Part shown: positions 1-18,672 of the stretch, piece by piece
Layout of the letters: each line of letters opens with the position of its first letter
Numbering within the stretch: position 1 is the stretch's first letter
Source of the DNA: Stenotrophomonas sp. Marseille-Q4652
Lineage (GTDB): Bacteria; Pseudomonadota; Gammaproteobacteria; Xanthomonadales; Xanthomonadaceae
Assembly (NCBI RefSeq): GCF_916618915.1
Contig: NZ_CAKAKE010000001.1
Coordinates: 930,001-994,000, forward strand
Direction: 5' to 3'
DNA: 64,000 bases
Made by a program: the position numbers and the translations under genes
The notes under the pieces: model-generated
Database searches by the model: none
The model's input: only the letters and a program-made list of their open reading frames with translations
Told to the model about the DNA's origin: nothing

Positions 1-3000
1 TCCCGTCGAGACAACCGCCACGGCCAAACGCGCTCTTCGGTGTCACGACCGAGGAACTTGCGCTCCAGGTGCAGGTGGGTGCTCTCGGCACCGTGCTTCC
101 AGTCCGGCTGCCTGACGGCCCACTGCCGTCGCTTGATGGCCTTCAACGCCTCCGAGTTCGGGCTGACCTCGGCTTCCGATGCCTGCCACGTCAGCGCATG
201 ACGGTCGGCGCATTGCCAGAACAGGACCCAGGCCGCATACGCCTCTTCGCGGACTTCCAACCGCCAGTACTCCCGCCACCAGTGCCGCGCGCATGCTTCG
301 TGGTGGCGCAACCGCGCCGAGCGACGCGCCACGTCTTCGGCCCAAGACGTCGACGGCCCTTCGGCCCACGCGTCAGCCACGGGCAATTGGTTGTCGCTCC
401 GGAACCCGGCTAGCGTCGCGCCCCGCTGCTGCCGCCACGGCAACGGCGAGGCGGCGTCGCGCGCAATGTGATCTTCAAGCCAAGCCCGGTGACCATTGAT
501 CTGAGCCACCAGCGCGATCTCGTAGAGCTCGGCGTCGGTGTTGGCTTCTTCCAGCGATAGCAACGCGTCGCGAGCCGCGACGACGGCCGGTGACTCGGGC
601 GCCCGGAAAAGCACGTGCACCAACTGCGGCACGCCGGCACGCCCCACGATCCGGGTGAACATGGCGCGGGTCAGGGCGTTTCGCAGGCTGACGCCGCGGG
701 GCGGGTCCAGCTCCAGCAAGCCTTCGCACACGGCCAGGAACAAGCCTTCGGCCTGCTGCACGCGAAGCCGAAAATCGTTGCTGAGACTCTCGTGGCCTTC
801 GATCCAGCGGCGAACCACCTCCGGCGCATGCCGGCACAGCGCCAAGCCGTCCTCACGGGTTACGAACTGCAGGTAGAGGCTCGCGCCTTCCTTGCGGGCC
901 TGCTTGATGGCCTTCTCCGCCTGTTCACTAGCCCGCTCCTGCGCTGCCGCCTGGGCGTCGCTGTCGAAGATGTCTCGGAAGGCTTCGGGTGAATGCGGAT
1001 CCGGCGGCGCCGGTGGTCGGACCGAAAGCCAAGGCGGAGCGGTCGTGTCGTTATCGCGCTCGACGGTTAGGCGAGCGCCGACCTCGAACACGCCCGACGG
1101 TCCCTTCGCAAGAATCGCGTCCAGGTGCTCGGCAGCCACCCGCACTTCAGAGGTATCACCGCCGCGTGCTCGCACCGCTTCCAGCAGGCGCCACGGGGCC
1201 AATCGACCGGCTACCCGATCAAACGCATGCGACTTGGTGACCTCCATTAGTGCGCCGGTGGCGGCATGCGCCGCCATGGCATCCGTCCCGGGCACGAAGC
1301 TCCAGCCTCGGCGCTCGAGGTCCTGACCGAGCCGCTTGGCGTCCGCGCTCTCCAAGACCATGAAAGCGAGCCGGACATCCATGGGGTCGTCCGACGTGGT
1401 GAATTGACCGACCCACGCCCACGCGGCGTCGCTGAGCACCGGCGGGGCCGTGACCAGGACGACCACCAGATCGCGCTGCTGCTTCTGACTGCCGTTGCCG
1501 AAGCGTCCGATCAGCTCATCGACCTGCTGCGTCGTGAGCGGCAACAGGTTGTCTGTGATCGACAGAGGAATGCGCAGCAAGTCCGCCTCGATGACCAGAC
1601 TGGCCTGAGCGAGAGCGTCCAGGTCCAGCAGTTCGGCCTGAATCCATTCCGACCCTGCTAGGGTCTCGTCACCCTCATGGGATTCGCGGCCGACCTCGCG
1701 CATGGCGCGCGCCGCGGCCACTTCCTCCGGCCCGTACAAGAGCAACGCCCGGTTGATTTCCCAGGATCGGGGCGCGCGCAGGTTCGCAGCCGCAGGGGTT
1801 CGGGCGAGTCGGCGACGTAGCGCGGCCAGGGCGCGCGGCGCGCAGCGCGCCATGACCGCCTGCAGCTGCCGGAAATCGTTGTCTTGCGCGGTCAGGTTAC
1901 GCCCGGTGAACAAGCTGACAGCGTCAATCGCCTCGACCGCGTCGGCGATTTCCTCGCAGAAGGCCGGGGGCGGTACGAAGCTCGGATCAGTCCACATCGC
2001 TTCGCAGCGTCGGGCGCGCACGCGCAGCGGCAACGACTTGTCGTTGAGTACGTCCAGCGCATGCCGGCGCTCGAGGCTGAAGATGCTGCGTACCGGGTCG
2101 GCGAGATAGTCGTCGTCGTAGTTGAAGCTGCGGCCCAATGACACCTTCATGGCGTTGGCAGCCTCGTCATCCTTGCGCTCGCCAGAAAGGTGCAGCAGCA
2201 GCTCGGCCACGCGGCGATTGAGCTGTTCGGCGATCCCGGGCTCCGGCACCCGTTGCAGCATATCGGCCGCCGCGGCCCGAACGGCGGTCGCGACGGCCTC
2301 GGGATCCACCGGGTTGAGCAAGCAGGCCCAACGCAACTGGTTCCACCCGGTGTGATTGAAGGAGGTGGAGGCTGCAACGGCCGCCACGCGGAAGACCGGC
2401 AGCGCCTGCGCGAGGGGATAGCCCTCCAGCAGCGCTGGCACGTGCTCGCTCCACCGCCCTTCGTCCCGGTCGACCACGCGCATGGCCTCGCCCAGCACCG
2501 TCAGCTCGCCCGCGGCATCCACGCCTAGCCGACTGAGCATGCGCTCTCGTCGGTGTCGTTCGGCTTGCGGCTCGGCCTTCTGGCGAATGTCGAGGTCGCG
2601 CGAGATCAGCCGAAGCCAGTCATGCGCCCGCGCCAGCACGGCCTGTCGCACGCGAACGTTGGCGCGATCCACCCCACGCAATGCGGCCACGGCGATCTGC
2701 CGGCAATAGCCATGCGTGTAGCGATTGGACAGCTCGATCGCGTCGAGCAGGTCCTCCGGCATTTCCGGTGCCAGCGCCTGGGCGTCGCGCACGTGGGTCT
2801 CGGCGAGGTTCTGCGTTTGCAACCACGCTGCGACCAGGACGCCCAGGAGGGGGGCGGCGTACTGCGACTGCAAGGCGATGGCGACGGCGGCCTGCAGGAT
2901 GTCGGCCCGCTGATCCAGTCCGGAAATGGGGTCGAGCCACTTATCCAGTTGGGACTGCAGCGATTGACGGTCCGCGGTCTGCGCCGTCGCCAACAGGAAA

Positions 3001-4652
3001 ACGACCGTCGTGCCCAAGGCGTGCGCCATGAGCTCTGCCGTCAGCTCCACCTTGTGATCGACCCGAGGCAGGACCAACGGCGATCCCATCACCGCGCTCA
3101 AGCGTCGATATTTCGCCGGGCTGTCCAGCGTGTCATCGGCGGCCAGCGCGCTCAGTTCCTGCACGGTGAACACCCGTTGACCGGACCGGATCTTCTCGCC
3201 CGCCGCCACGAGCCACTGTTCCCACTGCGCGGCGGAGAACTCGCGGCTCATGGACACCCCGGCCGTGTCGCGTCCGTACTCCCACAGCAACCGATGGGTC
3301 GTGACGGCGCCGCCGTCCACCAACTTGTCCCGGAATCGGACGACCAACGCGAATAACCGAGGATTGCGGGCCAACGCATGGAGTTCGGGGTGGAGATCAC
3401 TTCGGGTGAGCCCGTGCTTCGCGAGAATCTGATCGAACTCCCCGCCGTCGCGGTCGTCGTAATCCTTGACTGGAATCGACACCGCGCGGTCTTGCAATCC
3501 CGCTAGCCGGTGCAGATGCGTTTCGAAATGATGCGTCCTGGTGGTGGCGATCGCGCGGATCCGACCTCGGAACTGCTCCGATTGCAGTTGGGCGAACAGT
3601 TCCACCCACTGCACGCTCGCCTGCTGGTTCAGGCCGTCAAACACGACCAGCAGCGCACTGCCCTCCTCGGCCGGACGCTCCAGCATGCGTTCCAGACGGG
3701 CGCGCCAGTGCGTGCGGTCGCGGACCTGCGTCAACTCTTGGAGGCGATCGGCGAGGAAGTCCTTGGCGGCTGAGATCGATCCCATGGCCTGCCCGGCGCC
3801 GGGAACAGCGGAGGCAGGGATGAGCAGGACCGGCGGCAACACGTCGGTTCGCTGGATCAGCCAGTCGGCGACGGCCCACGTCTTGCCCACGCCGAACTGA
3901 CCGCACAGGCAAACGGGCGAACCTGCTGCTGGCGGCGACGCCCACCATGCCTCCAGTGCATGCAGGACCTGCATGCGATGCACCAACGGGTTCTTCCCGC
4001 CGGTGACCACCTGGCCGAAGTGCGCACGCGATTCGTAGGGGTCGGTCCAGATCGCGGTCAATCGCTCCCGCGACAGGCGTCGCAGCGTCTCCGTGCCGAT
4101 CTGCCACGCCGCCATGTCGCGCCGCAGGCGCTCGAGTGTGGGATCGATCGCCGGACGCAGTCGACGCGCGATCTGTCCCGCCTCGGCGCCGAGGTATTGG
4201 GTTACCGTGTCGGGGTTCACGGCGAACAAGGCGGCGAGCAGCGGGGTCTCGTGCGCCTTCCAATCGATCACGAGCACCGGCACGCCGAGGCGGTGCGCCT
4301 TCGCGAAGAGCGACGCCTCCAACTGCTCGGGTACGTCGCGGGTCACCGCCAGGACCCACACTTCCAGCCCGGGATCGCTGGCAATCGCGTCGTCGAGTTC
4401 GCCCTGGAGCTCTCGCGCGCTCAGCGCGGTGGTGTCCTTGTACCGCTTGCACTCGATGCGCAGCGCTCGCTGCTGCCGTCCGCTCGTACCGGCGTCGCCA
4501 CCGCTCTGGAAGCCCGATTTGGCGACCGCGACGCTCGTACCGAGCAACTCGCCTATCAGCGAAGCAACCAGGTGTTCGAACTTAGTAGGCGGGTCGACCC
4601 CTTGTGCCAACGCCCGGAGGCGTTCGAGATCTTGCGGGTCGATCGATGCCAT
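1..4652 (-). CDS. Avs-like STAND NTPase with N-terminal PD-(D/E)xK nuclease domain (C-terminus outside window)
   Basis: This minus-strand frame is open from the ATG at 4652 to the left edge, about 1550 codons; I checked it codon by codon and found no stop. Residues ~20-130 look like an Mrr-type restriction-endonuclease fold, with GFQSGGDAG (D53) and RIECKRYKD (E67, K69) giving a D-x13-E-x-K site. A P-loop GQFGVGKT lies at ~251-258. A Walker B of the NACHT type, LLVVFDGLNQ, has its Asp at ~339. A motif NPRLFALVVRFRDKL follows at ~420, typical of STAND helical domains. The distal part is rich in Trp and Arg and contains AYAAWVLFWQCADRHALTW, resembling sensor repeats. By family knowledge, nuclease-STAND fusions (Avs) detect phage proteins, oligomerise and cut DNA. 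The antiviral role is inferred. The other strand shows only shadow frames. Confidence 0.85.
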   Translation of the reverse strand, partial: MASIDPQDLERLRALAQGVDPPTKFEHLVASLIGELLGTSVAVAKSGFQSGGDAGTSGRQQRALRIECKRYKDTTALSARELQGELDDAIASDPGLEVWVLAVTRDVPEQLEASLFAKAHRLGVPVLVIDWKAHETPLLAALFAVNPDTVTQYLGAEAGQIARRLRPAIDPTLERLRRDMAAWQIGTETLRRLSRERLTAIWTDPYESRAHFGQVVTGGKNPLVHRMQVLHALEAWWASPPAAGSPVCLCGQFGVGKTWAVADWLIQRTDVLPPVLLIPASAVPGAGQAMGSISAAKDFLADRLQELTQVRDRTHWRARLERMLERPAEEGSALLVVFDGLNQQASVQWVELFAQLQSEQFRGRIRAIATTRTHHFETHLHRLAGLQDRAVSIPVKDYDDRDGGEFDQILAKHGLTRSDLHPELHALARNPRLFALVVRFRDKLVDGGAVTTHRLLWEYGRDTAGVSMSREFSAAQWEQWLVAAGEKIRSGQRVFTVQELSALAADDTLDSPAKYRRLSAVMGSPLVLPRVDHKVELTAELMAHALGTTVVFLLATAQTADRQSLQSQLDKWLDPISGLDQRADILQAAVAIALQSQYAAPLLGVLVAAWLQTQNLAETHVRDAQALAPEMPEDLLDAIELSNRYTHGYCRQIAVAALRGVDRANVRVRQAVLARAHDWLRLISRDLDIRQKAEPQAERHRRERMLSRLGVDAAGELTVLGEAMRVVDRDEGRWSEHVPALLEGYPLAQALPVFRVAAVAASTSFNHTGWNQLRWACLLNPVDPEAVATAVRAAAADMLQRVPEPGIAEQLNRRVAELLLHLSGERKDDEAANAMKVSLGRSFNYDDDYLADPVRSIFSLERRHALDVLNDKSLPLRVRARRCEAMWTDPSFVPPPAFCEEIADAVEAIDAVSLFTGRNLTAQDNDFRQLQAVMARCAPRALAALRRRLARTPAAANLRAPRSWEINRALLLYGPEEVAAARAMREVGRESHEGDETLAGSEWIQAELLDLDALAQASLVIEADLLRIPLSITDNLLPLTTQQVDELIGRFGNGSQKQQRDLVVVLVTAPPVLSDAAWAWVGQFTTSDDPMDVRLAFMVLESADAKRLGQDLERRGWSFVPGTDAMAAHAATGALMEVTKSHAFDRVAGRLAPWRLLEAVRARGGDTSEVRVAAEHLDAILAKGPSGVFEVGARLTVERDNDTTAPPWLSVRPPAPPDPHSPEAFRDIFDSDAQAAAQERASEQAEKAIKQARKEGASLYLQFVTREDGLALCRHAPEVVRRWIEGHESLSNDFRLRVQQAEGLFLAVCEGLLELDPPRGVSLRNALTRAMFTRIVGRAGVPQLVHVLFRAPESPAVVAARDALLSLEEANTDAELYEIALVAQINGHRAWLEDHIARDAASPLPWRQQRGATLAGFRSDNQLPVADAWAEGPSTSWAEDVARRSARLRHHEACARHWWREYWRLEVREEAYAAWVLFWQCADRHALTWQASEAEVSPNSEALKAIKRRQWAVRQPDWKHGAESTHLHLERKFLGRDTEERVWPWRLSRR

Positions 4653-4722
4653 CGATGGGTCTCCGGCTCGCCACAAAGGACGGTCCGCCGCCGACCATCG
4701 CCAGCGGACCGCGGATGCGTTA

Positions 4723-5358
4723 CTAGGGATTGCGCTTGTTTGGCACGAATTTTACCAAAGTTGGCGGCGCGTTCCGGCCAATCTCCTTTTTGCGCCAGCC
4801 CCCTTGTGAACTATTTCCGGTCGGCCGCCGGGATCGCCCCTCCCCCGGGGTTCCTCCTCGTGCGGAGTCCTCGCCAAATGCTTCCGACAGTAGCTCCGCC
4901 AGCACTCGCACCTTTCGCGCGGGATGCCGACTGGGCGAGCGAATCACGTAGAGCCCTGCTTCCGCGGGTGGGAAGCGCGTCATGATCGGAATCAAAGCGC
5001 CGCTGTCGAGATGCGGTTGGCTCAGGAAGTCGGGCAAATACGCGATGCCCACGCCGGCCACGGCGGCCGCCGCGAGTGCGGCGCAACTGTCGGCTTTGAA
5101 GCGACCTTGTGGGCGGATGGTGACTGTCGTCGCCTAGTCCTGAAACTGCCAGGCCTCGGTGCCGAGCATGAGTGCCTCGTGTGCCAGAATTTCATCGGGC
5201 GTTTCTGGCGCGCCGTGACGCCGCATGTATTCGGGACTGGCGACCAGCTTGCCGTAGATCGGGCCGATGCGTTTTGCGATCAGGCTCGTGTCTCGTACCA
5301 GCAGTACCTCGTTACCGGCGCTTGCAGCCGAGTACGACTCGACGACCCTAAATGTCAT
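4723..5358 (-). pseudogene. LysR-family regulator remnant (effector domain only, in-frame stop)
   Basis: Two minus-strand pieces lie in one frame. 5358-5134 encodes SLIAKRIGPIYGKLVASPEY and PETPDEILAHEALML; 5131-4723 continues with RFKADSCAALAAAAVAGVGIAYLPDFL. A TAG codon at 5134-5136 separates them (WQFQD-stop-ATTVTIRPQG). Both match the substrate-binding domain of LysR-type transcription factors, but the winged-helix N-terminus and the first third of the effector domain are absent upstream, so the gene is truncated as well as interrupted. The C-terminal tail after SEAFGED runs on in low-complexity basic sequence toward the STAND gene. It is a relic of the locus that received the island and cannot make a functional regulator. 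Confidence 0.8.
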
Positions 5359-5817
5359 TATCGAGAAATCCCTTTGATGTCGTTAGCGCGCCGGTCACGT
5401 CGGTGTCCCGCCGCGAAGCCGATCCTACTCCAACCATACCGACGCGTCCGCCCGTTCCGCTTGGGCTGCTGCCTGGCTTCGCGTACTCGCGATAAATCGA
5501 TCTAATCCCCTGCCCTATCGATGTTCGCTTCCGGCCAAAGCGGCCTACGATCACGGCGCCGGTATCGTTTACTCGGCGCCCCAACGGCTAGCTGTTGCTG
5601 AGCGATTTCAGGTCAGCGACGAACTGCTCGGGATGCGGTGGGTGTGGTAGACCATGACCAACGGGGGCATCCTCCGCCGCGCGAGGAAATCGCTCGGCGC
5701 GCGCCGCAATGACAACGTGTACGTACGGGCCACGTGGAGATTCCGGGCGACCCTGGTGATCGTGAGGCGACAGGCTTCGGCTGGCCGGACCCGCGCGCAC
5801 AGCAGACAATGGTCGCC
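5359..5817. other. gene-free stretch
   Basis: Between the LysR remnant and the transporter remnant I see no frame with a recognisable family and no clear start site. Short minus-strand frames here are Arg/Ser-rich and look non-coding. It probably holds decayed sequence plus the 5' flank of the CDF gene. Confidence 0.5.
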
Positions 5818-6737
5818 ATGAAACCCCGCGACGGACCGGCCGAAGCCACGCCGGACCTGAAGAAATACGCCTGGCTGGCCATCGTGACCGCGGTGCTGAC
5901 GGTGCTGCTCAAGGGCAGCGCCTGGGCGATCACCGGCTCGGTGGGCCTGCTGTCGGACGCCGCCGAATCGATGGTCAACCTGGTGGCCGCCATCGTCGCC
6001 CTGGTCTCGCTGACCATCGCCGCCCGGCCGGCCGACGACGACCACCACTTCGGCCACAGCAAGGCGGAGTATTTCTCCGCCGCGCTGAAGGGATCATGAT
6101 CTTCGTCTCCGCGGCCTCGATCATCTACCTGGGCATCGATCGCCTGCTCAACCCCCGGCCGCTGGGATCGCTCGGCATCGGCCTCGCCGTTTCGATCATG
6201 GCCGCCGTCCTCAACGGCATCGTCGGGCGGATCCTGATCAAGGTCGGCACGCGCCACCGCTCCATCACCCTGCGCGCCGACGGCAAGCACCTGATGGCCG
6301 ACGTGTACACCTCGGTCGGGGTCGTGGTGGGCCTGGGGTTGGCGTGGCTGACAGGCTGGAACTGGCTGGATCCGGTGATCGCGATCCTGGTGGGCGTGAA
6401 CATCCTGGTTGTCGGCTACCGGCTGATGTCCGAATCCGCCTCCGGCCTGATGGACGCGACCCTGTCCCCCGAGGACAACGCCCGAATCCAGGCCATCCTG
6501 GACGCGCACGCCGAACCGGGCCGGATCGAATTCCACGCCGTGCGCACGCGCGAGTCCGGGGCCCGCCAGTTCATGGAGATGCACATGCTGGTGCCCGGCG
6601 ACTGGAAGGTGCTGCGCGGGCATGACGCCATGGAAGACCTGGTGGAGAAGATCGTGGCGGAGTTTCCCGCCATGCGCGTGACCGGGCACCTGGAACCGGT
6701 CTCCGATCCCCGCAGCTACGAAGACATGGCCCTGTAG
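5818..6737 (+). pseudogene. FieF/YiiP-like cation diffusion facilitator, single-base frameshift
   Basis: The first frame (ATG 5818, or ATG 5809 in the same frame) encodes TGSVGLLSDAAESMVNLVAA and DDDHHFGHSKAEYFSAAL, the TM2 and loop signatures of Zn/Fe-exporting CDF proteins. It then stops after KGS at 6099. The second frame continues at once with MIFVSAASIIYLGIDRLLN and reaches a cytoplasmic C-terminal domain (RIEFHAVRTRESG, MEMHMLVPGDW) ending at 6737. Restoring one G at about 6085-6090 (CTG-GAA-GGG-ATC-ATG) would join them into a normal ~305-residue transporter. It is either a real recent mutation or a base-call error. Function if intact: proton-coupled export of divalent metal across the inner membrane. 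Confidence 0.85.
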
Positions 6738-6852
6738 CCGAAAAGCGGGAGGCGACGTTGGGTCAGGCAGGCGACGAAGACCCGCGGCTCGATCCCCCGT
6801 GCGTTGTCACTGTATTCATCCGGAGTTTATATCCGCACGTATACTAAGGCGC

Positions 6853-7269
6853 ATGACTTTCCGCGCGCTCCTGATGCGATTGTTCCTGGTCGTTGCCTTG
6901 CTCGCCAACGGTCCGGGCATCGCTGGCGCGTCCATGCACATGGAGCACGTGCGCGACTCCGCCGGTGACGTCACCTCGGCACCGACAGCAGCCGAGGCCA
7001 TGGCGGCCTGCCATGGAGGAGCAGCGGCTGCTACGGGGGCCAATGAACACCATCACCCCCAGGCCACTGACGAGGCCGGAGCGGTATCGCCGTGGGACGA
7101 CTGCTGTGAGACGGACAGTTGCTGTGCGTGCATGCACCATTGCTTCGCGGCCTTCGCAGGGTCGGCGTCTCCCGTCGTGGAAGTTCTTTACCGGCAGATC
7201 GCTGAACCGTTTCTGTCGGTGCACGCGTCCGCGGCCCTGACCAATCACTTCCGACCTCCGATCGGCTAA
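6853..7269 (+). CDS. copL: CopL-like copper regulatory/metal-binding secreted protein
   Basis: 138 residues from ATG 6853; the frame is open further upstream, but this start places the signal peptide (RALLMRLFLVVALLANGPG) correctly. The mature part is rich in His, Met and Cys: MHMEHV, ANEHHHPQ and a cluster CCETDSCCACMHHCF. It ends with a conserved-looking HFRPPIG tail. In Xanthomonas, CopL precedes copAB and is required for copper-induced expression; the same order holds here, with copA starting about 100 bp downstream. The identification rests on position, size and composition. A similar FRPPI tail occurs in the czcI-like gene of this window. Confidence 0.8.
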   Translation: MTFRALLMRLFLVVALLANGPGIAGASMHMEHVRDSAGDVTSAPTAAEAMAACHGGAAAATGANEHHHPQATDEAGAVSPWDDCCETDSCCACMHHCFAAFAGSASPVVEVLYRQIAEPFLSVHASAALTNHFRPPIG

Positions 7270-7372
7270 GTGTCGCTGAGCGCCTTTGAGGCGCCGATGG
7301 ACCCTGTCCGCGTTGTCCGCACCGACAGGGTCACGCTCGCTTCGCGAGCCCTCGACCTTTCCCGGAGTTCCC

Positions 7373-9259
7373 ATGTCATCCGATTCTTTCGGCCGTGCCG
7401 GAGGGCTGTCTTCCCCGTCGCGCCGCCTCTTTGTTCAAGGACTTGCCGCCGGAGGCGCCGCCGCGGCGCTTGGCTTCTGGCCGCGCACCAGCTGGGCCGT
7501 CAAGGCTGAAGGCGTGCCCAACGTACTTTCTGGCACCGAGTTCGACCTGACCATCGGCGAGACGCCGATGAACTTCACCGGCGCCACGCGTCCTGCCATC
7601 ACGGTCAACGGCTCGATTCCTGCACCGCTGCTGCGCTGGCGCGAGGGCACTACCGTCAACCTGCGGGTCCGCAATGCCTTGCCGCCAGGCTCCATCCATG
7701 GCCACCAGGCATCGATCCACTGGCACGGCATCCTGCTGCCAGCCAACATGGACGGCGTGCCGGGACTCAGCTTCGACGGCATCGACCGCGGCGAGACTTA
7801 CCAGTACCGCTTCAACGTCGTACAGGGCGGCACCTACTGGTACCACAGCCACTCCGGTTTCCAGGAGCAGGCCGGCCTCTACGGGCCGCTGGTGATCGAG
7901 CCACTCGAGCCCGAGCCCTTCGCCTATGACCGCGATTACGTGGTCATGCTCAGCGACTGGACCGACCTGGATCCGCAGCGTCTGTTCGCCCGGCTCAAGA
8001 AGCGGTCGGATTTCGACAACTTCTCCAAGCAGACCGTGGGCGACTTCTTCGCCGACGTGAAACAGCACGGCCTGGCCGCCACGGTCGAAGATCGCAAGAT
8101 GTGGGGCCAGATGCGGATGACACCGACCGACCTGTCGGACGTCAACGGCAACACCTACACCTACCTGTTGAACGGCACGACCTCGCTCGGCAACTGGACC
8201 GGACTGTTCCGGTCCGGCGAGAAGGTACGCCTGCGCTTCATCAACGGGTCCGCGATGACCTACTTCGACGTGCGCATCCCGGGCCTGAAGATGACCGTGG
8301 TCGCAGCCGATGGCCAGTACGTGCATCCGGTCACGGTCGACGAATTCCGCATCGCCACCGCCGAGACCTTCGACGTCATTGTCGAACCGACCGGGCAGGA
8401 TGCGTTCACCATCTTTGCCCAGGACAGTGGCCGTACCGGCTACATCAGCGGCACGCTCGCCGTCAGGCAAGGGCTGCGGGCTCCCGTGCCCAACGTCGAT
8501 CCCAAGCCGATTCTCACCATGGACGACATGGGCCACGGCGGAATGGGTGGCGGCGGCCATGACATGTCTTCGATGTCTCACAGCGCAATGGCCGGTGGTG
8601 CAACCGGCGGCATGAATCACAGCGGTCACGACATGTCGGCGATGGCTGGAGGCGCAATGGCCGGCGGAAGCATGGCCGACATGGATCATGGCACCGGCGG
8701 GAGCATGGCCGGGATGGACCACGGTGCCGGCGGCATGCAGGAACACCCTGCCACCGAAACCGGCAACCCCCTGGTCGACATGCAGACGATGGCGCCCGCG
8801 CCCAGGCTGGATGACCCGGGCATCGGCTTACGCGACAACGGCCGCCGCGTGCTGACCTACTCCGACCTGCGCAGCACGTTCAGCGACCCGGACGGGCGTG
8901 AGCCCGGTCGCACGGTCGAGCTGCACCTGACCGGGCACATGGAGCGTTTCGCCTGGTCGTTCAACGGAGTGAAGTTCGCTGACGCCGAACCCCTGCGTCT
9001 GAAGTACGGCGAGCGCATGCGAGTCGTCTTGGTCAACGACACGATGATGTCGCACCCGATCCATCTGCACGGCATGTGGAGCGACCTCGAGGACGAGTCC
9101 GGCAACTTCATGGTGCGCAAGCACACCATCGACATGCCGCCTGGTACGAAGCGGGCCTTTCGCGTGCGCGCCGACGCGCTGGGTCGCTGGGCGTTCCATT
9201 GCCACCTGCTTTACCACATGGAAGCCGGCATGTTCCGCGAAGTGCGGGTGGAGGAATGA
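7373..9259 (+). CDS. copA: CopA multicopper oxidase, Tat-exported periplasmic copper resistance protein
   Basis: 628 residues. I chose ATG 7373 because it precedes the twin-arginine signal SRRLFVQGLAAGGAAAALGF. Copper sites are visible: SIHWHGILLP, YWYHSHSGF near the N-terminus, and HPIHLHGMWS and FHCHLLYHMEAGM near the C-terminus, so type 1, 2 and 3 ligands are all present. A Met/His-rich insert (DMGHGGMGGGGHDMSSMSH and several MDHG repeats, roughly residues 385-460) is the copper-loading segment of the CopA class. Role: oxidises and sequesters Cu(I) in the periplasm. Its stop overlaps the copB start (ATGA). No defects seen. Confidence 0.95.
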   Translation: MSSDSFGRAGGLSSPSRRLFVQGLAAGGAAAALGFWPRTSWAVKAEGVPNVLSGTEFDLTIGETPMNFTGATRPAITVNGSIPAPLLRWREGTTVNLRVRNALPPGSIHGHQASIHWHGILLPANMDGVPGLSFDGIDRGETYQYRFNVVQGGTYWYHSHSGFQEQAGLYGPLVIEPLEPEPFAYDRDYVVMLSDWTDLDPQRLFARLKKRSDFDNFSKQTVGDFFADVKQHGLAATVEDRKMWGQMRMTPTDLSDVNGNTYTYLLNGTTSLGNWTGLFRSGEKVRLRFINGSAMTYFDVRIPGLKMTVVAADGQYVHPVTVDEFRIATAETFDVIVEPTGQDAFTIFAQDSGRTGYISGTLAVRQGLRAPVPNVDPKPILTMDDMGHGGMGGGGHDMSSMSHSAMAGGATGGMNHSGHDMSAMAGGAMAGGSMADMDHGTGGSMAGMDHGAGGMQEHPATETGNPLVDMQTMAPAPRLDDPGIGLRDNGRRVLTYSDLRSTFSDPDGREPGRTVELHLTGHMERFAWSFNGVKFADAEPLRLKYGERMRVVLVNDTMMSHPIHLHGMWSDLEDESGNFMVRKHTIDMPPGTKRAFRVRADALGRWAFHCHLLYHMEAGMFREVRVEE

Positions 9260-10473
9260 ACGCCATGAGCCGTTCCAATCGTCACTCCCTAGCCATCGGC
9301 CTGACGTCCGTACTCGTTCTTGCAACTGGTTGCGCCCCGGCGTGGGCGCAGGAGACGGACCACGCCGCACACCATCCGGCAGCCAAGCCGGCTGCGTCAC
9401 CATCGTCGCCAAGGCCCGCGGATTCGCACGCCGGCCATCTACCGACTTCACCGGACAAGAGTTCCGACGATCACGGGACGATGAACCACGGGAACATGCG
9501 GCACGGAGCTGCGAATCCTGCCGACAGCGAACACACCGGGATGGACCACTCCACGATGGACCACTCCACGATGGATCACTCCACGATGGATCACTCCACG
9601 ATGGATCACTCCACGATGGATCACTCCGGGATGGATCACTCCGGGATGGATCACTCCGGGATGGATCACTCCGGCATGGATCACTCGGGCATGGATCACG
9701 CTTCCATGGGCCATCAACCTGGTGTCAGCGAGGACCTGCCGCCGACGGCCGAGCCGCGCGAGCCAATCCCGGTTGTCACGCCGACAGATCGGGCTGCGGC
9801 GTTCCCGGACCTCGACGAGCACCTGATGCATGGTGAATCGATCAATTCCTACTGGGCGCTTGACCGGCTAGAGGCGTGGGACGCGGACGAGGACGGCACC
9901 GGCATGGCCTGGGAAGCACAAGGCTGGGTGGGTTCCGACTTGAACCGGCTCTGGCTGCGCAGCGAGGGCGAGCGTGCAGGTGGATCCACCGAGTCGGCGG
10001 ATGTGGAAGTGCTGTACGGCCGAGCGATCGCCCGATGGTGGGACGCAGTCGCCGGTGTCCGCCATGACTTCGCCTTCGGCGGCGGGCCGTCGCGCACCTA
10101 TGCCGCGCTCGGTGTGATCGGTCTTGCGCCGTACAAATTCGAAGTCTCCGCGACGGCCTACCTAGGCGAGTCCGGTCAGCTCGGGGTAGGTGCGGAAGCC
10201 GAATACGAAATGCTGTTCACCAACCGGCTGATCGGCCAGTGGCTGGTCGAAGGCGAGGCCTGGAGCAAGGACGATCCGGCGGTGGGAATCGGCAGTGGGC
10301 TGAGCAAGGTCGAAGCCGGTTTCCGCTTGCGCTACGAGTTCCATCGACAGTTCGCGCCCTATGTCGGCGTGGTCTGGGAGCGTGCTTACGGCGGAACCGC
10401 AGACCTCCGTCGCGCAGCATCAGGCGATGTTGACGACACCCGGATTGTGGCGGGCGTCCGCATCTGGTTCTGA
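9256..10473 (+). CDS. copB: CopB outer-membrane copper resistance protein with expanded MDHS repeats
   Basis: 405 residues starting at ATG 9256, overlapping the copA stop by four bases. A signal peptide (SLAIGLTSVLVLATGC) is followed by a low-complexity His/Met region with 11 tandem pentapeptides (MDHS-T/G, 9541-9705). The C-terminal ~230 residues form the CopB domain: LDRLEAWDADEDGTG, WVGSDLNRLWLRSEGER, AVAGVRHDFAFGGGPSR, ending RIVAGVRIWF, an aromatic-terminated beta-barrel pattern. By family knowledge CopB sits in the outer membrane and works with CopA to bind or export copper. The repeat copies are nearly identical in DNA, which indicates recent length change. Confidence 0.93.
   Translation: MNAMSRSNRHSLAIGLTSVLVLATGCAPAWAQETDHAAHHPAAKPAASPSSPRPADSHAGHLPTSPDKSSDDHGTMNHGNMRHGAANPADSEHTGMDHSTMDHSTMDHSTMDHSTMDHSTMDHSGMDHSGMDHSGMDHSGMDHSGMDHASMGHQPGVSEDLPPTAEPREPIPVVTPTDRAAAFPDLDEHLMHGESINSYWALDRLEAWDADEDGTGMAWEAQGWVGSDLNRLWLRSEGERAGGSTESADVEVLYGRAIARWWDAVAGVRHDFAFGGGPSRTYAALGVIGLAPYKFEVSATAYLGESGQLGVGAEAEYEMLFTNRLIGQWLVEGEAWSKDDPAVGIGSGLSKVEAGFRLRYEFHRQFAPYVGVVWERAYGGTADLRRAASGDVDDTRIVAGVRIWF
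9541..9705 (+). repeat. 11 x 15-bp in-frame tandem repeat in copB
   Basis: Eleven consecutive 15-bp units of the form ATGGAYCACTCCRSG run without interruption. Units 1-5 end in ACG (Thr) and units 6-9 in GGG or GGC (Gly); units 10-11 are more diverged. The block pattern (a run of one variant, then a run of another) suggests expansion by slippage. Each unit adds one Met and one His, potential copper ligands. Confidence 0.95.
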
Positions 10474-10557
10474 CAGGAACTGGCATTGAGCCAGCGTACG
10501 CAAGGCTGGCTGAAGTTTCTTCAGCGACACACACACCACTGATTTCGGAGTTCACGC

Positions 10558-11067
10558 ATGAACGTAACACCCGTCGCCCTCGCCCTCGCACTGGCATTTG
10601 CCGTTGTGTCGCCCGCTATGGCGCAGACAACCCAGGCGCATGCACATCACCCCGCCACTGCGGCAGCGGCGAACGTGGATGTTCCTGCCGCCGCCACGGC
10701 CGCCGTCGCCGTGGTAGAGCGGTTCAACACCGCACTGTCCAGCGAAGACCTGGCAACGGTCGGATCCCTGCTCGCTCCTGACGTCCTCATCCTCGAGTCC
10801 GGTGGTGCCGAGCACAGCCGCGAGGAATATCTGGGCCACCACGCCATCAGCGACGCGGCGTTCCTCAAGGACGCCCATCGCCAACTCCTGCGCCAGCGCG
10901 CACGAACCGCTGGTGAGTTCGCATGGGTGGGAACCGAAAGCGAGCTGCACGCCCAGAAGGACGGCAAGCCCCTGACCGTTCTGAGCACCGAGACAATGGT
11001 GCTGAAGCAGACCGCCGACGGCTGGCGGATCGTCCACATCCACTGGTCCTCGCGGACCAAGCGCTGA
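10558..11067 (+). CDS. secreted SnoaL-like (DUF4440/NTF2-fold) protein
   Basis: 169 residues with a clear signal peptide (ALALALAFAVVSPAMAQ) and a His-containing linker AHAHHP. The rest follows the NTF2-like pattern: VVERFNTALSSEDLATVGSLL, DVLILESGGAEHSREEY, a central barrel, and STETMVLKQTADGWRIVHIHW at the end, typical of DUF4440/SnoaL. The biochemical role is unknown. Its place between copB and the DUF411 gene, on the same strand with short gaps, suggests a periplasmic accessory in copper resistance; that is inference from context only. Confidence 0.75.
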   Translation: MNVTPVALALALAFAVVSPAMAQTTQAHAHHPATAAAANVDVPAAATAAVAVVERFNTALSSEDLATVGSLLAPDVLILESGGAEHSREEYLGHHAISDAAFLKDAHRQLLRQRARTAGEFAWVGTESELHAQKDGKPLTVLSTETMVLKQTADGWRIVHIHWSSRTKR

Positions 11068-11080
11068 GCGCAGAACCGAC

Positions 11081-11605
11081 ATGAATGCTTACGGATTGAA
11101 CCGACTGACGTGGGTGGTTTTCGCGGTCGCCGGCCTGGGTGCTTGCACGCAGGCCAGTACGCCTGCGCAATCCACCACCGCGCAGACAGCACAGGTCGTC
11201 CCGGGAACACCCGCCGTGACTCCAGCAGCCCTGCCACGCATGACCGTCCATAAAACCCCGACCTGCGGATGTTGCGGTGCCTGGATCGAGCACATGAAGA
11301 AAGCGGGCTTCGCGCTGGACGTGCACGACATGGATGACCTGGGCCCAGTGAAGGAGCGACTGGGTGTGCCCTACGCAAAGGGGTCCTGCCACACCACCGA
11401 GATCGCCGGATACGTGATCGAAGGCCATGTTCCAGCCGCCGACATCAAGCGCCTCCTTGAGGAAAGGCCGGACGCACGGGGCCTGGTCCTGCCCGGAATG
11501 CCGCTCGGGTCGCCGGGCATGGAAGTCCCGGATGGGCGCCAGCAGCCCTACACGGTCGAACTGGTCCATCACGACGGAACCACCGAACCATTCGCGCAGC
11601 ACTGA
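11081..11605 (+). CDS. DUF411 periplasmic metal-binding protein
   Basis: 174 residues with an N-terminal hydrophobic segment and a Cys in AVAGLGAC that could be lipidated. The DUF411 core is easy to see: MTVHKTPTCGCCGAWIEHMK, VPYAKGSCHTTEIAGYVIEGHVPA and GLVLPGMPLGSPGME. The CGCC motif and the conserved GSCHT cysteine are the likely copper ligands. DUF411 genes are frequent neighbours of cop and cus operons; binding of Cu(I) is a family-based expectation. It begins 13 bp after the DUF4440 stop, consistent with one transcript. Confidence 0.85.
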   Translation: MNAYGLNRLTWVVFAVAGLGACTQASTPAQSTTAQTAQVVPGTPAVTPAALPRMTVHKTPTCGCCGAWIEHMKKAGFALDVHDMDDLGPVKERLGVPYAKGSCHTTEIAGYVIEGHVPAADIKRLLEERPDARGLVLPGMPLGSPGMEVPDGRQQPYTVELVHHDGTTEPFAQH

Positions 11606-11675
11606 GCCATCGGCGAATCAGGGGGCGGTGTAGCGGGCGCGCCGATTCTCGTCCGCGATGAAGCAGGAGATCCAC

Positions 11676-12026
11676 ATGACTCACCATTCCGAAGACCACC
11701 GGTCCCAGGCCATGAACACGTGCATCGACAACTGCACGCAATGCCATGCGATCTGCCTGGAGACCATCAACTATTGCCTGACCAAGGGAGGTGCACACGC
11801 AGCACCGGAACACATCGCCCTGCTGGCGACGTGTGCCGATATCTGTGCCACCAGCGCTGACGCGATGCTGCGCGGTACGAGCGTTCATAACGTCATTTGC
11901 GGTGCCTGCGCGGAGATCTGCCGCCAGTGCGCGGATGCATGCGATGCCATGAACGACCCCGAGATGACGCGTTGCGCTGAAGCGTGTCGTCGATGCGCGG
12001 AAAGCTGCAGCGCCATGGCAGCTTGA
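11676..12026 (+). CDS. Cys-rich four-helix-bundle copper-binding protein (Csp-like)
   Basis: 116 residues from ATG 11676; this start has a good AGGAG box, whereas the in-frame ATG at 11658 does not. Sixteen cysteines sit in helical spacing: CIDNCTQCHAIC, TCADIC, CGACAEICRQCADAC and CAEACRRCAESC. This matches the copper storage (Csp) family, four-helix bundles whose core thiols bind many Cu(I) ions. No signal peptide is visible, so it is probably the cytosolic type (Csp3-like). It buffers excess Cu(I) in this model. It lies between DUF411 and copC. Confidence 0.88.
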   Translation: MTHHSEDHRSQAMNTCIDNCTQCHAICLETINYCLTKGGAHAAPEHIALLATCADICATSADAMLRGTSVHNVICGACAEICRQCADACDAMNDPEMTRCAEACRRCAESCSAMAA

Positions 12027-12035
12027 TGCATCGAG

Positions 12036-12060
12036 GGTCCCGCCTGCGATGGCGGGATCC
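12036..12060 (+). terminator. GC-rich hairpin after the Csp-like gene
   Basis: GGTCCCGCC and GGCGGGATCC flank a six-base loop nine bases after the stop codon. There is no T-run, so it may act as an mRNA stabiliser or a weak terminator rather than a classical one. Confidence 0.35.
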
Positions 12061-12128
12061 TCACCTCCGATTTCACAAGGCTCGGCGCCCACCAACGGGG
12101 CTTTGCATCAGTTCACAAAGAGGTCCAT

Positions 12129-12512
12129 ATGAAGTCTTCAAGCGTTCTTCGCTCTTTCGCGCTCGTACTCGCAATCGCGGCAGGGCAGTTTTCGCTGCAG
12201 GTCGCGCGCGCCCACGCGGCGTTACAGCAGTCCACACCGGCAGCAAATGCGGTCGTGGCCTCCCCAAGCCAGATCGATCTCGTGTTCAACGAGACGCTGA
12301 TTCCGCGCGCGTCGCGTCTCAACCTGCTCATGAAGCACGGCAGTTCCACTATGCCGATCGAGAACGTCACGACCGAGATCGTCAACAACGGCAAGACCCT
12401 GCGTGCCAAGTTGCCTCGTCCGTTGGCTCCAGGTCTCTACACGGTGGAATACCGCGCTGTTGGAGGTGACAACCACCCCATGCCGGGCAGCTTCAGCTTC
12501 ACGGTGCGTTGA
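12129..12512 (+). CDS. copC: CopC periplasmic copper-binding protein
   Basis: 127 residues. The signal peptide ends in VARAHAALQQSTPA, which leaves the N-terminal His of the Cu(II) site at the start of the mature chain. The Greek-key CopC domain shows ANAVVASPSQIDLVFNE, KTLRAKLPRPLAPGLYTVEY and AVGGDNHPMPGSFSFTV, with the conserved His in the GDNHP turn. It carries copper in the periplasm and partners with CopD, whose gene starts 10 bp downstream. The Met-rich Cu(I) loop of Pseudomonas CopC is not evident, so this is probably a Cu(II)-only type. Confidence 0.93.
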   Translation: MKSSSVLRSFALVLAIAAGQFSLQVARAHAALQQSTPAANAVVASPSQIDLVFNETLIPRASRLNLLMKHGSSTMPIENVTTEIVNNGKTLRAKLPRPLAPGLYTVEYRAVGGDNHPMPGSFSFTVR

Positions 12513-12522
12513 GGAGTCGAGG

Positions 12523-13452
12523 ATGTTCGACCTGTCGGCCTACGCACTGAGATTCCTGGAATACATGGTTCTCATGGTTCTTTTCGGGGTTCCGCTGTTC
12601 GGCTGGTATGGTTTGCGGCGACCGGCACTCGCCGACGCCCTGGCCGGATGGCCCTTCATGGGCATTCTGTTGGTGAGTGCCGCCGTCGGGCTCGTGCTCA
12701 CCGGGGCCGATGTCGTATTCAAGACCGCCGGCATCATGGGAATGCCGATTGCCGACGTTGATCGCGAATCGCTCGGCTGGTATCTGTTTGATACGTCCGC
12801 AGGCCGCGCAGCCATGGCGAGAGGCGCGCTGCTGATCGCCATGGTGTTTGTACTCGGATGGCATCGTCGTCGCGGGAAGGTGGAGGCCGCCTTCCCGTTC
12901 GCGGCGACGCTGGCGGGCGGCGCCCTCGCCTCGCTGGCATGGAACGGCCACGCCGCCGCTGGCGAGGGCGTGGCAGGCGCGGTCCGGCTCTTTGCGGGCC
13001 TCGTCCATCTTCTCGCTGCAGGCGGCTGGATCGCAGCGGTCCTGATGTTCCTGGGAATGCTCCTGCGCGGCAAGGGCGCTGCGGGCAACGGGCGTCTGCG
13101 ATCAACGCATGACTTCCTGCGTGGATTCTCGACGCTTGGAACGATTTTCGTTGCTGCGCTCATTGTGTCCGGCATCGCGCATTACGGTGATCTCACCGCG
13201 TGGTCATTGTCGACGCTGGTCCAGAGCACCTACGGAAACCTGTTGCTGTTCAAACTTGCCCTGTTCGGCGGAATGCTGGGCCTGGGAGCAATGCACCGAT
13301 GGACGCTGGTGCCGCGCCTTGAACGGGCGCTGGCCGGCGGAGATCCCTCGCAGGAGGTGCGAGCCTTGCGGCAGAGCGTTGCGGCCGAGGCTGCGCTGGC
13401 GATCCTGATCCTCATTGTCGTTTCAGTGCTCGGGACGCTCAGCCCCGCTTGA
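12523..13452 (+). CDS. copD: CopD inner-membrane copper protein
   Basis: 309 residues from ATG 12523; the frame is open upstream inside copC, but the GAGGA box precedes this ATG. About eight hydrophobic helices are apparent, with the CopD features SLAWNGHAAAGEGVAGAVRL, LVHLLAAGGWIAAVLMFLGM and SGIAHYGDLTAWSLSTLVQS. The conserved His/Trp positions in these helices are those expected for metal passage. Paired with CopC, it imports or handles copper at the inner membrane. No defect seen; the next gene lies 177 bp downstream. Confidence 0.92.
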   Translation: MFDLSAYALRFLEYMVLMVLFGVPLFGWYGLRRPALADALAGWPFMGILLVSAAVGLVLTGADVVFKTAGIMGMPIADVDRESLGWYLFDTSAGRAAMARGALLIAMVFVLGWHRRRGKVEAAFPFAATLAGGALASLAWNGHAAAGEGVAGAVRLFAGLVHLLAAGGWIAAVLMFLGMLLRGKGAAGNGRLRSTHDFLRGFSTLGTIFVAALIVSGIAHYGDLTAWSLSTLVQSTYGNLLLFKLALFGGMLGLGAMHRWTLVPRLERALAGGDPSQEVRALRQSVAAEAALAILILIVVSVLGTLSPA

Positions 13453-13628
13453 CCATACCTTTCAACGACACACACGCTGGCAGGCCTAACTGGTGCCGCC
13501 TGTACGTCTCCGACGCACCCGAGAACCAGGTGCGACCGCACACGTTGCCGTAACTGTCGCGGTGCAACGCTTTCCAGCATGGTTGACGTCGGGTGGGACA
13601 CTGTTCCGGAAACACTAGGAGAAGCAAC

Positions 13629-14120
13629 ATGGCACACGCTGTTCAAGGGACAGATCACAAGCACGCCGAGGGCAGCGGGCGTCCCTATCTGCTGTTCTGG
13701 ATCAACATGGTGCTCGGTCTCGCGGTGATGTACATCGTCATGTTTTCGATGATCGATGGTGTCCGCGACTTCCGGAACAACCTGAACATGTTCTACATGG
13801 CACTGACCATGTGGGCTCCGATGGGGATCTTCATGCTCGCCACAATGCCTGGCATGTTCCCCAAGAAGGGCCTGAACATGGCGCTTTACGCAATCTTCGC
13901 CGCAGTGACGCTCGGCTCGTTCGGCGCCACGCGCGCGCAGGTGCTTGTAGATGACCGTCAGTTCATCGACTCGATGATCCCCCATCACTCAGGTGCGATC
14001 CTCATGTGCCGGGAAGCCAGACTGCGTGACGCCGAACTGCTCGCGCTGTGTGACGACATCACCAAAGCGCAGCGCTCCGAGATCGACCAGATGGAGAGCA
14101 TCAGATCCCGTCTCGACTAG
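13629..14120 (+). CDS. membrane-anchored DUF305 protein
   Basis: 163 residues from ATG 13629, with AGGAGAAG eight bases upstream. The first ~110 residues contain three hydrophobic helices (YLLFWINMVLGLAVMYIVM, NMFYMALTMWAPMGIFMLAT, and one near ALYAIFAAVTLGSF). The C-terminus carries the DUF305 signature FIDSMIPHHSGAILMCREA followed by a helix ending QMESIRSRL. DUF305 belongs to the ferritin-like fold group, and members with this TM arrangement are common in copper islands; the function is not established. A spacer without a promoter consensus I can name precedes it. Confidence 0.8.
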   Translation: MAHAVQGTDHKHAEGSGRPYLLFWINMVLGLAVMYIVMFSMIDGVRDFRNNLNMFYMALTMWAPMGIFMLATMPGMFPKKGLNMALYAIFAAVTLGSFGATRAQVLVDDRQFIDSMIPHHSGAILMCREARLRDAELLALCDDITKAQRSEIDQMESIRSRLD

Positions 14121-14494
14121 GCCGAGGATCTGCCTCCATCTGCTGCCCGGTGTCCGAGAAAAATGCCGCCCGGCCTCGCTCCAGAACTCGCCAAACTCCG
14201 GCGCCGAGACCGGCAGCCGCATGATGGCACTCGACAATGTGCCGCCGGCGCTGTCCAACTTCGAAACGCGCGGTCCATGACGTTGATCACCGGAGCCGGT
14301 TTCGGTCGACCGATCGTCTTACAGACAGCGGTCCAGAGGCCAGCGAGCTGATTCAACAGCCGCAATCGCCATCCGCACGATGGCAGTGCATGAGCTGGCT
14401 GCGCGGTAGCGACCTGGCGAGCTGCCGGGCCTTGACCTTGCCATCGTGGGAATCTTTAAGCTGGGCTTCCCGCGCATATTCCAGGGATAGTTCC
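14121..14494. other. non-coding leader upstream of the Cu(I) ATPase
   Basis: No convincing gene. Short frames here lack homology signals and the ATPase frame merely happens to be open. The 3' part carries the MerR-type promoter listed separately. Confidence 0.6.
14432..14462 (+). promoter_or_regulatory. CueR-type promoter of the Cu(I) P-type ATPase gene
   Basis: A -35 box TTGACC (14432-14437), a 19-bp spacer, and a -10 box TAAGCT (14457-14462). The spacer carries an imperfect dyad ACCTTGCC-ATCG-TGGGAATC, resembling the CueR operator. Over-long spacers are the hallmark of promoters twisted open by MerR-family activators. cueR lies downstream at 17177. Confidence 0.7.
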
Positions 14495-17068
<2,574 letters not shown>

Positions 17069-17176
17069 TCCCAAGACACGGTGCCGCCTGACTGAACACC
17101 AAGACAGGATCGATGTGGCGGACGCCGGCCTAGCGTGTCGAACCAAGCATCCTTGGGTGACCAGGAAAAGAGAATG

Positions 17177-17656
17177 ATGAATATCGGTGAAGCAGCCAAG
17201 TTTTCAGGCGTGTCGGCGAAGATGATCCGCTACTACGAACAGATCGGCTTGATCCCCAAAGCTGCGCGCTCTGAGGCCGGCTACCGACACTACAGCACGC
17301 CTGACGCTTATAGCCTTCGCTTTATCCGTCGCGCACGAGACCTTGGCTTCTCTGTCGAACAGATCGCAGAACTGCTGGTCTTGTGGCGCGACCGTGACCG
17401 CGCAAGCGCCGACGTCAAGGCGATGGCGCTTTCCCATGCCGCCGGACTGAAGACGAGAATCGCCGAGCTGCAGGCGATGGTGCAAACGCTCGAGCATCTG
17501 GCCGACCACTGCCACGGGGATGACCGACCGGAATGCCCGATCCTTGCGGATCTGGCCGAGCCAACAGCGGCGGAGTCGCGTTCGCAGGGTCCACATAGGA
17601 CGCCTCGGTTTGGGGCCGACACGCCCGCCTCCTCGCGTAACCGCGGCGTCAGATGA
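17177..17656 (+). CDS. cueR: CueR-type copper-responsive MerR regulator
   Basis: 159 residues from ATG 17177 (an ATG three bases earlier is equally possible). N-terminal MerR helix-turn-helix: MNIGEAAKFSGVSAKMIRYY and EAGYRHYSTPDAYSLRFI. A dimerisation helix follows, then a metal loop CHGDDRPECPIL whose two Cys match CueR C112 and C120 spacing for linear Cu(I) binding. It should sense cytosolic copper and activate the 19-bp-spacer promoters before the ATPase and copZ genes. It follows the ATPase on the same strand after about 100 bp. The tail beyond the metal loop is longer than usual. Confidence 0.92.
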   Translation: MNIGEAAKFSGVSAKMIRYYEQIGLIPKAARSEAGYRHYSTPDAYSLRFIRRARDLGFSVEQIAELLVLWRDRDRASADVKAMALSHAAGLKTRIAELQAMVQTLEHLADHCHGDDRPECPILADLAEPTAAESRSQGPHRTPRFGADTPASSRNRGVR

Positions 17657-17747
17657 CTCATTCGTGGTCGGACGTGCATTCGCAAGAGTTCTCGGCGCCG
17701 TTGTCGGCCAGCCGTGAGCAGCTTGCAAACATTCTGCTGATAGCCGA

Positions 17748-17778
17748 TTGACCTTGCCACGCTGTCAAACCCCATATT
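17748..17778 (+). promoter_or_regulatory. CueR-type promoter of copZ
   Basis: TTGACC (17748-17753), 19-bp spacer, CATATT (17773-17778). The first twelve bases TTGACCTTGCCA are identical to the ATPase promoter at 14432. The right half of the operator is less symmetric, so regulation by CueR is likely but weaker evidence than for the ATPase. Confidence 0.55.
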
Positions 17779-17810
17779 GATCCGACACCACAGTCGATCA
17801 GGAGATCAAG

Positions 17811-18011
17811 ATGCTTCGTTTCCACATTCCAAACATGACATGCGGCGGCTGCGCCAAGTCCGTCAAGAAGGCACTGCTCAGTGTGGACCCCCAAGCCCGC
17901 ATCGAAACCGACCCACCGACGCGTCAGGTGAGGGTCGATAGCGACATGGACGGGGGCGCGTTCCTCTCAGCGCTCAGTGAGGCTGGGTACCCGGACGAGC
18001 GATCAGCCTGA
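17811..18011 (+). CDS. copZ: CopZ-like heavy-metal-associated (HMA) copper chaperone
   Basis: 66 residues: one ferredoxin-like HMA domain with the metal loop NMTCGGCAKSVKKAL near the N-terminus and a closing FLSALSEAGYPDERS. CxxC chaperones of this size pass Cu(I) to the HMA domains of CopA ATPases by thiol exchange. The start is the first ATG after a good AGGAGAT box. It lies about 150 bp after cueR and has its own MerR-type promoter. Confidence 0.92.
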   Translation: MLRFHIPNMTCGGCAKSVKKALLSVDPQARIETDPPTRQVRVDSDMDGGAFLSALSEAGYPDERSA

Positions 18012-18252
18012 AGCTGGTTCCGGCCGCCGCCGACGCGCTCTACTCGCGCTCGGGGATCCCGCTGAGCCCGATGGTTGCGGCGCTCGCCATGAGACTGAGC
18101 TAGGTGTCGGTTGTGGCCCGCGCGCTTCGCCTGGCCGGGTCGGTTCCGGTTTCGGCGACACCGAAAGCGGCCTACCGGTCCAGTCACCCGATCTGCCCGG
18201 GGGATTGATCTGGATCAGTTGCATCTGACCGAGCAAAAGGTAACCTCAAGCC

Positions 18253-18672
18253 ATGATCCGCCGTCGTCACCGTAGCTGGTTGCAGCGCGCCGCCCTCCTC
18301 GCGATGGCGGCGCTGCTCTGGTCCCAGTTCGCGCTGGCCGGTCATGGCGGTTGCCTGGATCTCCCGGGAGCGACCACCGCAGACGCGGCTGACGCTTACG
18401 CCCAACACGACCCCAACCACGGCTGTGACGCCGATCTTCCCTCAGCGGACACGGCGCTGTGTGCCGCACATTGCAGCGAAGGGGGCATTTCGGCTGACAG
18501 CAGTCGCATCCCCCCGGTGCCACCGCTTATTGTCGGTGCGTGGCTCTCCTGGTTCGCGGTCGCTCAGACCGCAGACGCCGGTCCCGGGGTTTCGTCTGCA
18601 TGGGTGGATGCACCACCCAGGCCCGCCTGGCACCGCCCCACCGCCCATCCAGCGGCTCTCCTGCTGATCTGA
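18253..18672 (+). CDS. hypothetical small secreted protein of the copper island
   Basis: 139 residues. The N-terminus has an Arg-rich start and a hydrophobic segment (RAALLAMAALLWSQFALAG), so it is exported or anchored. The next part has HDPNHGCDAD and TALCAAHCSEG, Cys/His pairs that could bind metal. A second hydrophobic stretch (PLIVGAWLSWFAVAQT) follows, then a Pro/His-rich tail. I do not recognise the family; the layout is like other small Cys/His-containing proteins encoded beside cop genes. An involvement in metal binding is only a guess from composition and place. Confidence 0.55.
   Translation: MIRRRHRSWLQRAALLAMAALLWSQFALAGHGGCLDLPGATTADAADAYAQHDPNHGCDADLPSADTALCAAHCSEGGISADSSRIPPVPPLIVGAWLSWFAVAQTADAGPGVSSAWVDAPPRPAWHRPTAHPAALLLI

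Follow-up and report, generated by a model that had tools for sequence, protein, structure and literature searches.

A nuclease-STAND gene of Stenotrophomonas as a probable single-gene antiphage sensor

At the left edge of a 64,000-nucleotide stretch of Stenotrophomonas sp. Marseille-Q4652 (contig NZ_CAKAKE010000001.1, positions 930,001 to 994,000; hereafter the window), a long minus-strand reading frame joins a nuclease-like domain to a STAND-type NTPase and a large C-terminal part. An earlier note, made from the sequence alone, had taken it for an Avs-like defence gene, and the locus thus raises the question of whether the frame is a real gene, whether its product is an Avs protein and whether that product acts alone. 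The frame is a real gene of a widespread family, and its product is probably a stand-alone, single-gene antiphage sensor of the nuclease-STAND kind, built like the Avs proteins and equipped with another sensor.

Gene, domain order and predicted folds

The gene (window 1..4652, minus strand; genome C1 from 929997; L002:14997-19652) encodes 1551 amino acids and is open from an ATG at window 4652 (MASIDPQ...) leftwards to the window edge. As it ends at L002:14997, with its stop four bases past the edge, 1550 of the 1551 codons lie inside the window, so that the leftward extension proposed earlier could add no more than the final codon and the stop. The frame of about 1550 codons without stops is not a chance product, since 124 proteins match it, most of those listed over at least 96% of the query. 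A GGAG read by eye 8 nt 5' of the ATG (4661..4664, minus strand) is a likely ribosome-binding site; an in-frame TTG 24 bases 5' of the ATG is a possible other start, and a promoter scan of the upstream region (L002:19400-20000) found nothing. The motifs D53-x13-E67-x-K69, GQFGVGKT and LLVVFDGLNQ stand where they had been placed before.

The N-terminal domain (residues 1-150; 4203..4652, minus strand) is likely a DNA-cutting, Mrr-like PD-(D/E)xK nuclease. In a 29-row alignment of the window protein with 28 of the 120 listed homologs, it has the lowest mean entropy among the regions compared, and D53, E67 and K69 of its catalytic motif D53 ... E67-C-K69 (4446..4496, minus strand) are identical in all 29 rows, as they are in the 22 rows of the nuclease alignment. 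With hhalign, the nuclease profile matches the Mrr_cat set at 90.7% (E 1.2e-6), compared with 0.4% for the negative control; alignment A3 of full-length rows was unfit as a control, as it includes the nuclease, and matched at 51.6%. The domain thus falls in the PD-(D/E)xK/Mrr group, and not outside that fold, by an Mrr_cat-like profile, an aligned (E/Q)xK and a preceding Asp, the exact register of D53 being unsure. Likeness to the Mrr domain (PF04471) extends to the order of the fold, the FE motif and the (E/Q)-C-K, which align with the window protein, whose nuclease differs in being fused to a STAND switch. Pfam's own PF04471 model is weak here and finds one of the 29 family members (E 0.038). 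The loop 46-51, just N-terminal of the catalytic motif, has a predicted local distance difference test score (pLDDT) below 50 in the model.

Between effector and sensor lies a STAND/NLR-like NTPase followed by a helical and winged-helix-like part (residues 186-560; 2973..4097, minus strand), as seen in an AlphaFold2 model and its matches in the Protein Data Bank (PDB), namely NLRC4, NOD2, Avs4 and CED-4. It carries a Walker A motif, GQFGVGKT (residues 251-258; 3879..3902, minus strand), with G256 and K257 in 29 of 29 rows, and a Walker B region, LLVVFDGLNQ (residues 334-343; 3624..3653, minus strand), with D339, G340 and Q343 likewise invariant. NTPase, helical part and winged helix follow one another in the NLR-type order, and the predicted structure favours NACHT-type NLRs.

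The remaining residues, 561-1550 (3..2972, minus strand), are predicted to form an irregular alpha-solenoid, which is presumed to be the sensor. The model of residues 560-1550 (pLDDT 94.2; predicted template modelling score 0.92) is a solenoid of about 990 residues whose nearest solved folds are HEAT/ARM proteins, none of them strong, and this agrees with the earlier impression that the region is not a tetratricopeptide repeat (TPR) array. The description of a long Trp/Arg-rich C-terminal part holds for the last 152 residues (8.6% W, 13.8% R) and not for residues 561-1551 overall (2.9% W).

Identity to most distant rows, by region, is about 35-42% in the sensor, 40-45% in the NTPase and 47-54% in the nuclease. 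Variability was followed in 15 disjoint pairs of homologs at 76-97% identity, in which the density of differences, relative to the mean, is 0.75-1.25 in the solenoid blocks, 0.77 in the nuclease and 1.44 in the linker, and a hypervariable sensor was rejected on this ground. In one pair, L018/L029, the greatest differences are in nuclease and linker. The slowest-changing regions are the nuclease core 41-80 (0.33-0.46 of the mean density), about 431-480, and 571-610, while the fastest parts of the solenoid, about 891-1060 and 1201-1250, reach up to 1.4-1.6 times the mean; as a guess, these could be the recognition surface.

A sensor so conserved over distant hosts, with so even a spread of differences between close pairs, is also what would be seen in a guard of a host process or in a protein that responds to stress or incoming plasmids, the solenoid binding a conserved host factor. 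The published guard-type example is bNACHT25, which requires DnaJ according to the accessible part of the report (PMC12169576). However, equal conservation would be expected if the sensor recognised a fold conserved among phage proteins, as described for Avs1-4 in the portion available of another publication (PMC12931631), and the present data identify no host partner, hence we regard a guard or stress function as unlikely.

A widespread, patchy and mobile family

The full-length query gave 124 protein matches at E <= 0.001. The 120 listed among them have 34-94% identity, and most are about 1450-1600 amino acids long and match end to end; a precomputed Pfam label (DUF433) is found in only one of the 120. 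A scan of genome contigs with the family alignment gave at least 44 loci, a lower bound because the scan requires conserved peptides. The family is widespread but patchy over seven phyla: a tree of 41 rows (40 of them different) holds Pseudomonadota, Myxococcota, Spirochaetota, Chloroflexota, Nitrospinota, Latescibacterota and a group labelled Thermodesulfobacteriota, and metagenome bins account for many of the rows outside the proteobacteria. Closer to home, the gene is carried by 6 of 297 genomes of the bacterial family, and 8 of 101 near relatives match at E <= 0.001, five of them at full length.

Copies within the genus range from 42% to 92% identity to the window copy, and one of them (L062) is 87% identical to the copy of Xanthomonas euroxanthea, a wide divergence that, together with this similarity between genera, speaks for horizontal transfer. 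Identical genes are found in L061 (genome G024) and L019 (Stenotrophomonas sp. Iso1). The clearest case is the same-genus genome G348, in which the unit of gene and about 240 bp upstream (window 1..4895, minus strand; L097:9514-14416) has 92% DNA identity over 4907 columns, from just past the stop to the end of this upstream part, while L097, a stretch of 20 kb, otherwise shows no match (E <= 1e-20) to L003 and L002, together the 30 kb left of the window, or to window 1-20000. The gene can therefore move as a single gene. Relatives were found in 11 plasmid records, one at full length (Azospirillum, NZ_CP054617.1) and ten partial at about 25%. As for carriage by phages, none of 97 pattern matches in viral contigs encodes a relative, and 50,697 phage records gave no match at E <= 1e-5. 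The copy of genome G054 (L008 / L064) has two in-frame stops and for this reason looks decayed.

Shorter homologs were sought with sensor-only and nuclease-NTPase-only profiles, with lengths restricted so that most full-length members drop out, and gave 31 and 48 matches, respectively; 4 of these 79 were already among the homologs. All 75 that were mapped are colinear pieces of the protein, some with inner gaps, and their unmatched ends are at most 148 residues long. No swap of effector or sensor was seen among these 75, a view which fusions lacking shared 5-residue words escape. Varied effectors are a known trait of Avs-type proteins, which raises the question of why no swapping is seen in the present family.

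Neighbouring genes and the single-gene reading

The gene had been described as sitting alone, which is not borne out, as there is a group of defence-type genes immediately beyond the left edge of the window. In leftward order, the nuclease-STAND gene is followed by genes for a caspase-helicase (gene 2), a 1069-amino-acid protein, a NERD-like protein, OsmC, a CHAT protein and a tyrosine integrase. Gene 2 (L002:11985-14981; C1:926985-929981, minus strand) begins 15 nt after the nuclease-STAND gene on the same strand and encodes a fusion of 998 amino acids between an EACC1-type caspase and a Hel308-like superfamily 2 helicase; it may be an independent defence gene. For the 1069-amino-acid protein (L002:8655-11864, minus strand), Pfam, PADLOC and NCBIfam gave nothing significant; by eye, its N-terminus (FSAKRTW) resembles that of a nuclease. 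The next gene (L002:6490-8658, plus strand) encodes 722 amino acids, a segment of which resembles a NERD nuclease (PADLOC NERD, E 3.4e-10), and the CHAT protein (L002:1790-5587, minus strand) has 1265 amino acids and is encoded 9.4 kb downstream of the nuclease-STAND gene.

The close spacing of the first two genes invites the reading that the nuclease-STAND protein works as part of a multi-gene system, together with the caspase-helicase, the 1069-amino-acid protein or CHAT, the last as a protease acting after sensing. In X. euroxanthea (L013) and in the same-genus genome G038 (L062), the CHAT gene directly follows the nuclease-STAND gene, with 146 nt between them, hence the protein may not act alone in that branch; a close form of CHAT (at least 53%) occurs in 2 of the 297 genomes, both with the nuclease-STAND gene. 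More distant CHAT forms (29-30%) are found in four of these genomes without it. However, the caspase-helicase occurs in 4 of the 297, in one of them through a 32% match confined to the helicase part, and is accompanied by the nuclease-STAND gene solely in the genome studied here. G348, with its 92%-identical gene, has no match to the caspase-helicase or CHAT at E <= 1e-30, none of genes 2-7 is present in the 20 kb around its copy, and genes 2-5 have no phmmer match (E <= 1e-3) in loci L005-L056. A multi-gene system is thus improbable, and an operon with the caspase-helicase was rejected as a general rule, as the two rarely co-occur and the latter is absent around the G348 copy.

Recurrence of neighbours over the 44 loci is sparse, in a view that is incomplete since contig ends cut some loci short. 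Families of neighbouring open reading frames (ORFs) of at least 35 codons are seen in three loci at most within 3 kb of the gene, and in flanks of up to 10 kb (ORFs of at least 150 codons) such families reach at most four, with an alcohol dehydrogenase as one member. The neighbours shared by three loci are overlapping Nitrosomonas frames around a short-chain dehydrogenase and a second large nSTAND-type family of 1726-1760 amino acids, which lies beside the gene in three hosts and three arrangements (L015:12826-18003, L017:4592-9808, L019:14692-19971). Taken together with the transfer to or from G348, this makes a single-gene system the simplest reading, possibly with a CHAT helper in one branch.

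An integrase and part of the adjacent KfrA-type gene (L002:1-1459 and L003:14289-14999, compared with L061) are shared with Stenotrophomonas Iso1 at 75% and 65% identity, KfrA_N being identified in the Iso1 copy. As Iso1 also bears a family gene, the gene here rides on an integrase-bearing island, and the site is likely an integration hotspot for defence cargo. Enrichment of defence genes among the neighbours was dropped as a functional test: 80 nearest neighbours matched 289 PADLOC models at E <= 1e-8, and 80 of the 176 ORFs at least five genes away matched 296. On the other side of the gene, at window 5734-6737 (plus strand), a cation-efflux gene, CDF-like by eye, consists of overlapping frames (5734-6099 and 6096-6737) and is possibly disrupted.

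Probable mode of action and relation to known systems

The protein most likely works like Avs1-4, bNACHT25 and bNACHT32. By analogy with these, the C-terminal alpha-solenoid would keep the protein inactive at rest, with ADP bound, until a phage molecule, or a host factor altered by infection, binds the solenoid. Binding would lead to nucleotide exchange and assembly at the NTPase, which would bring the N-terminal Mrr-like domains together, and the joined domains would then cut phage and host DNA, so that the infection is stopped and the cell is lost. Defence, oligomerisation, DNA degradation and cell death are all modelled here on Avs1-4 and bNACHT25.

Several observations weigh against the reading as a stand-alone sensor of the Avs kind. 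The last Asp of the GDGGID motif is usually regarded as catalytic. The Mrr profile match places D53 on the first Asp instead, which leaves its register unsure. Pfam NACHT (PF05729) gives the window protein no match and finds 4 of the 29 family members (best E 1.7e-4), while the name NACHT, used before for this NTPase, is fair by structure. The structural match to Avs4 is remote, with 12% identity and a TM-score of 0.36 over the model, and hhalign to Avs4 gives 0.2-2.2%, the single Avs4 sequence being a weak target. To these are added the adjacency of CHAT in one branch and the lack of contrast between nearest and distant ORFs, by which the PADLOC signal belongs to the island and not to the gene.

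The protein could also be a very divergent Avs4 or another Avs type outside the reach of narrow curated models. Avs4 (AVAST type 4; PDB 8dgf) is the best solved match of residues 1-720 in Foldseek, aligned from the nuclease into the NTPase; it shares the order of Mrr-like nuclease, STAND NTPase and long C-terminal sensor, and a length of about 1550-1590 amino acids (1587 for Avs4, 1551 here). However, hhalign gives 1.1% for full Avs4 and 0.1% for the Avs4-type sensor, and BLASTP finds no match (best E 0.24), in both cases against a single sequence, which is a weak target; the solenoid is nearest to HEAT/ARM proteins, and an Avs chain is absent among the 50 rows listed by Foldseek for the C-terminal model, a test of that list only. 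Among NCBIfam matches of the 29 members at E <= 1, neither the Avs4 model NF041815 (cut-off 1500 bits) nor the Avs2 model NF041813 (cut-off 1000 bits) nor any other Avs model appears, and PADLOC likewise yields none. NF041815 has no match at E <= 0.001 in the protein's own genome, and NF041813 matches 0 of the 41 genomes of the genus draw, the own genome included. The curated models thus do not support membership of Avs2 or Avs4, in the latter case together with the lack of notable profile similarity, and a divergent Avs is a rather remote prospect. The label Avs-like remains apt for the probable mode of action, whereas by every test run the family is a separate one.

The window protein is below every PADLOC, NCBIfam and Pfam cut-off, with no PADLOC (2023) match at E <= 1; among the 29 members, PADLOC gives only GajB in two (best E 0.026) and PDC-S01 in one (E 0.054). 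Transcription regulators gave no significant match, AraC_N in one member (E 0.17) and a sigma-70 model in one (E 0.35) being at chance level. A direct PDB sequence search with the family and nuclease profiles gave nothing relevant, a viral structure library matched only general AAA folds, and a literature search in a PMC library recognised no published name for the family.

A widely spread family that has no model in the PADLOC, NCBIfam and Pfam copies used thereby joins the small set of bacterial nuclease-STAND sensors. Its ability to move as a single gene and its conserved, confidently modelled sensor make it well suited for learning what is recognised by STAND sensors other than Avs1-5. It is conceivable, if somewhat doubtful, that the family represents a new nuclease-NLR type apart from Avs1-5, an indivisible unit of effector, switch and sensor in seven or more phyla. 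Its HEAT-like superhelical sensor would then bind a conserved partner, perhaps a host factor under guard, that is not among the triggers known for Avs proteins (terminase, portal, Ksap1, JADA).

Among known systems, the NLR/AP-ATPases NLRC4, NOD2, NLRP3 and CED-4 differ from the window protein by carrying other effector and sensor domains. In the accessible part of the literature, Avs1-Avs3 and Avs5 are antiphage sensors with a STAND NTPase, as it probably is; Avs1-4 have nuclease effectors and sense phage packaging proteins or Ksap1, while Avs5 differs in using Sir2 (PMC12931631). According to the available part of a further report, bNACHT25 and bNACHT32 (bNACHT clade 6) combine a PD-(D/E)xK nuclease, NACHT and a C-terminal helical part, and DNA is degraded on activation; they carry an NCH1 domain (PMC12169576). 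The window protein differs in having a sensor of about 990 residues. No NCH-type Pfam match was seen in the 29 members at E <= 1, the presence of NCH1 in the Pfam copy being unconfirmed. A 2026 screen in Escherichia coli describes, in the part accessible, further PD-(D/E)xK and P-loop systems, with which the present family may overlap (PMC13092281).
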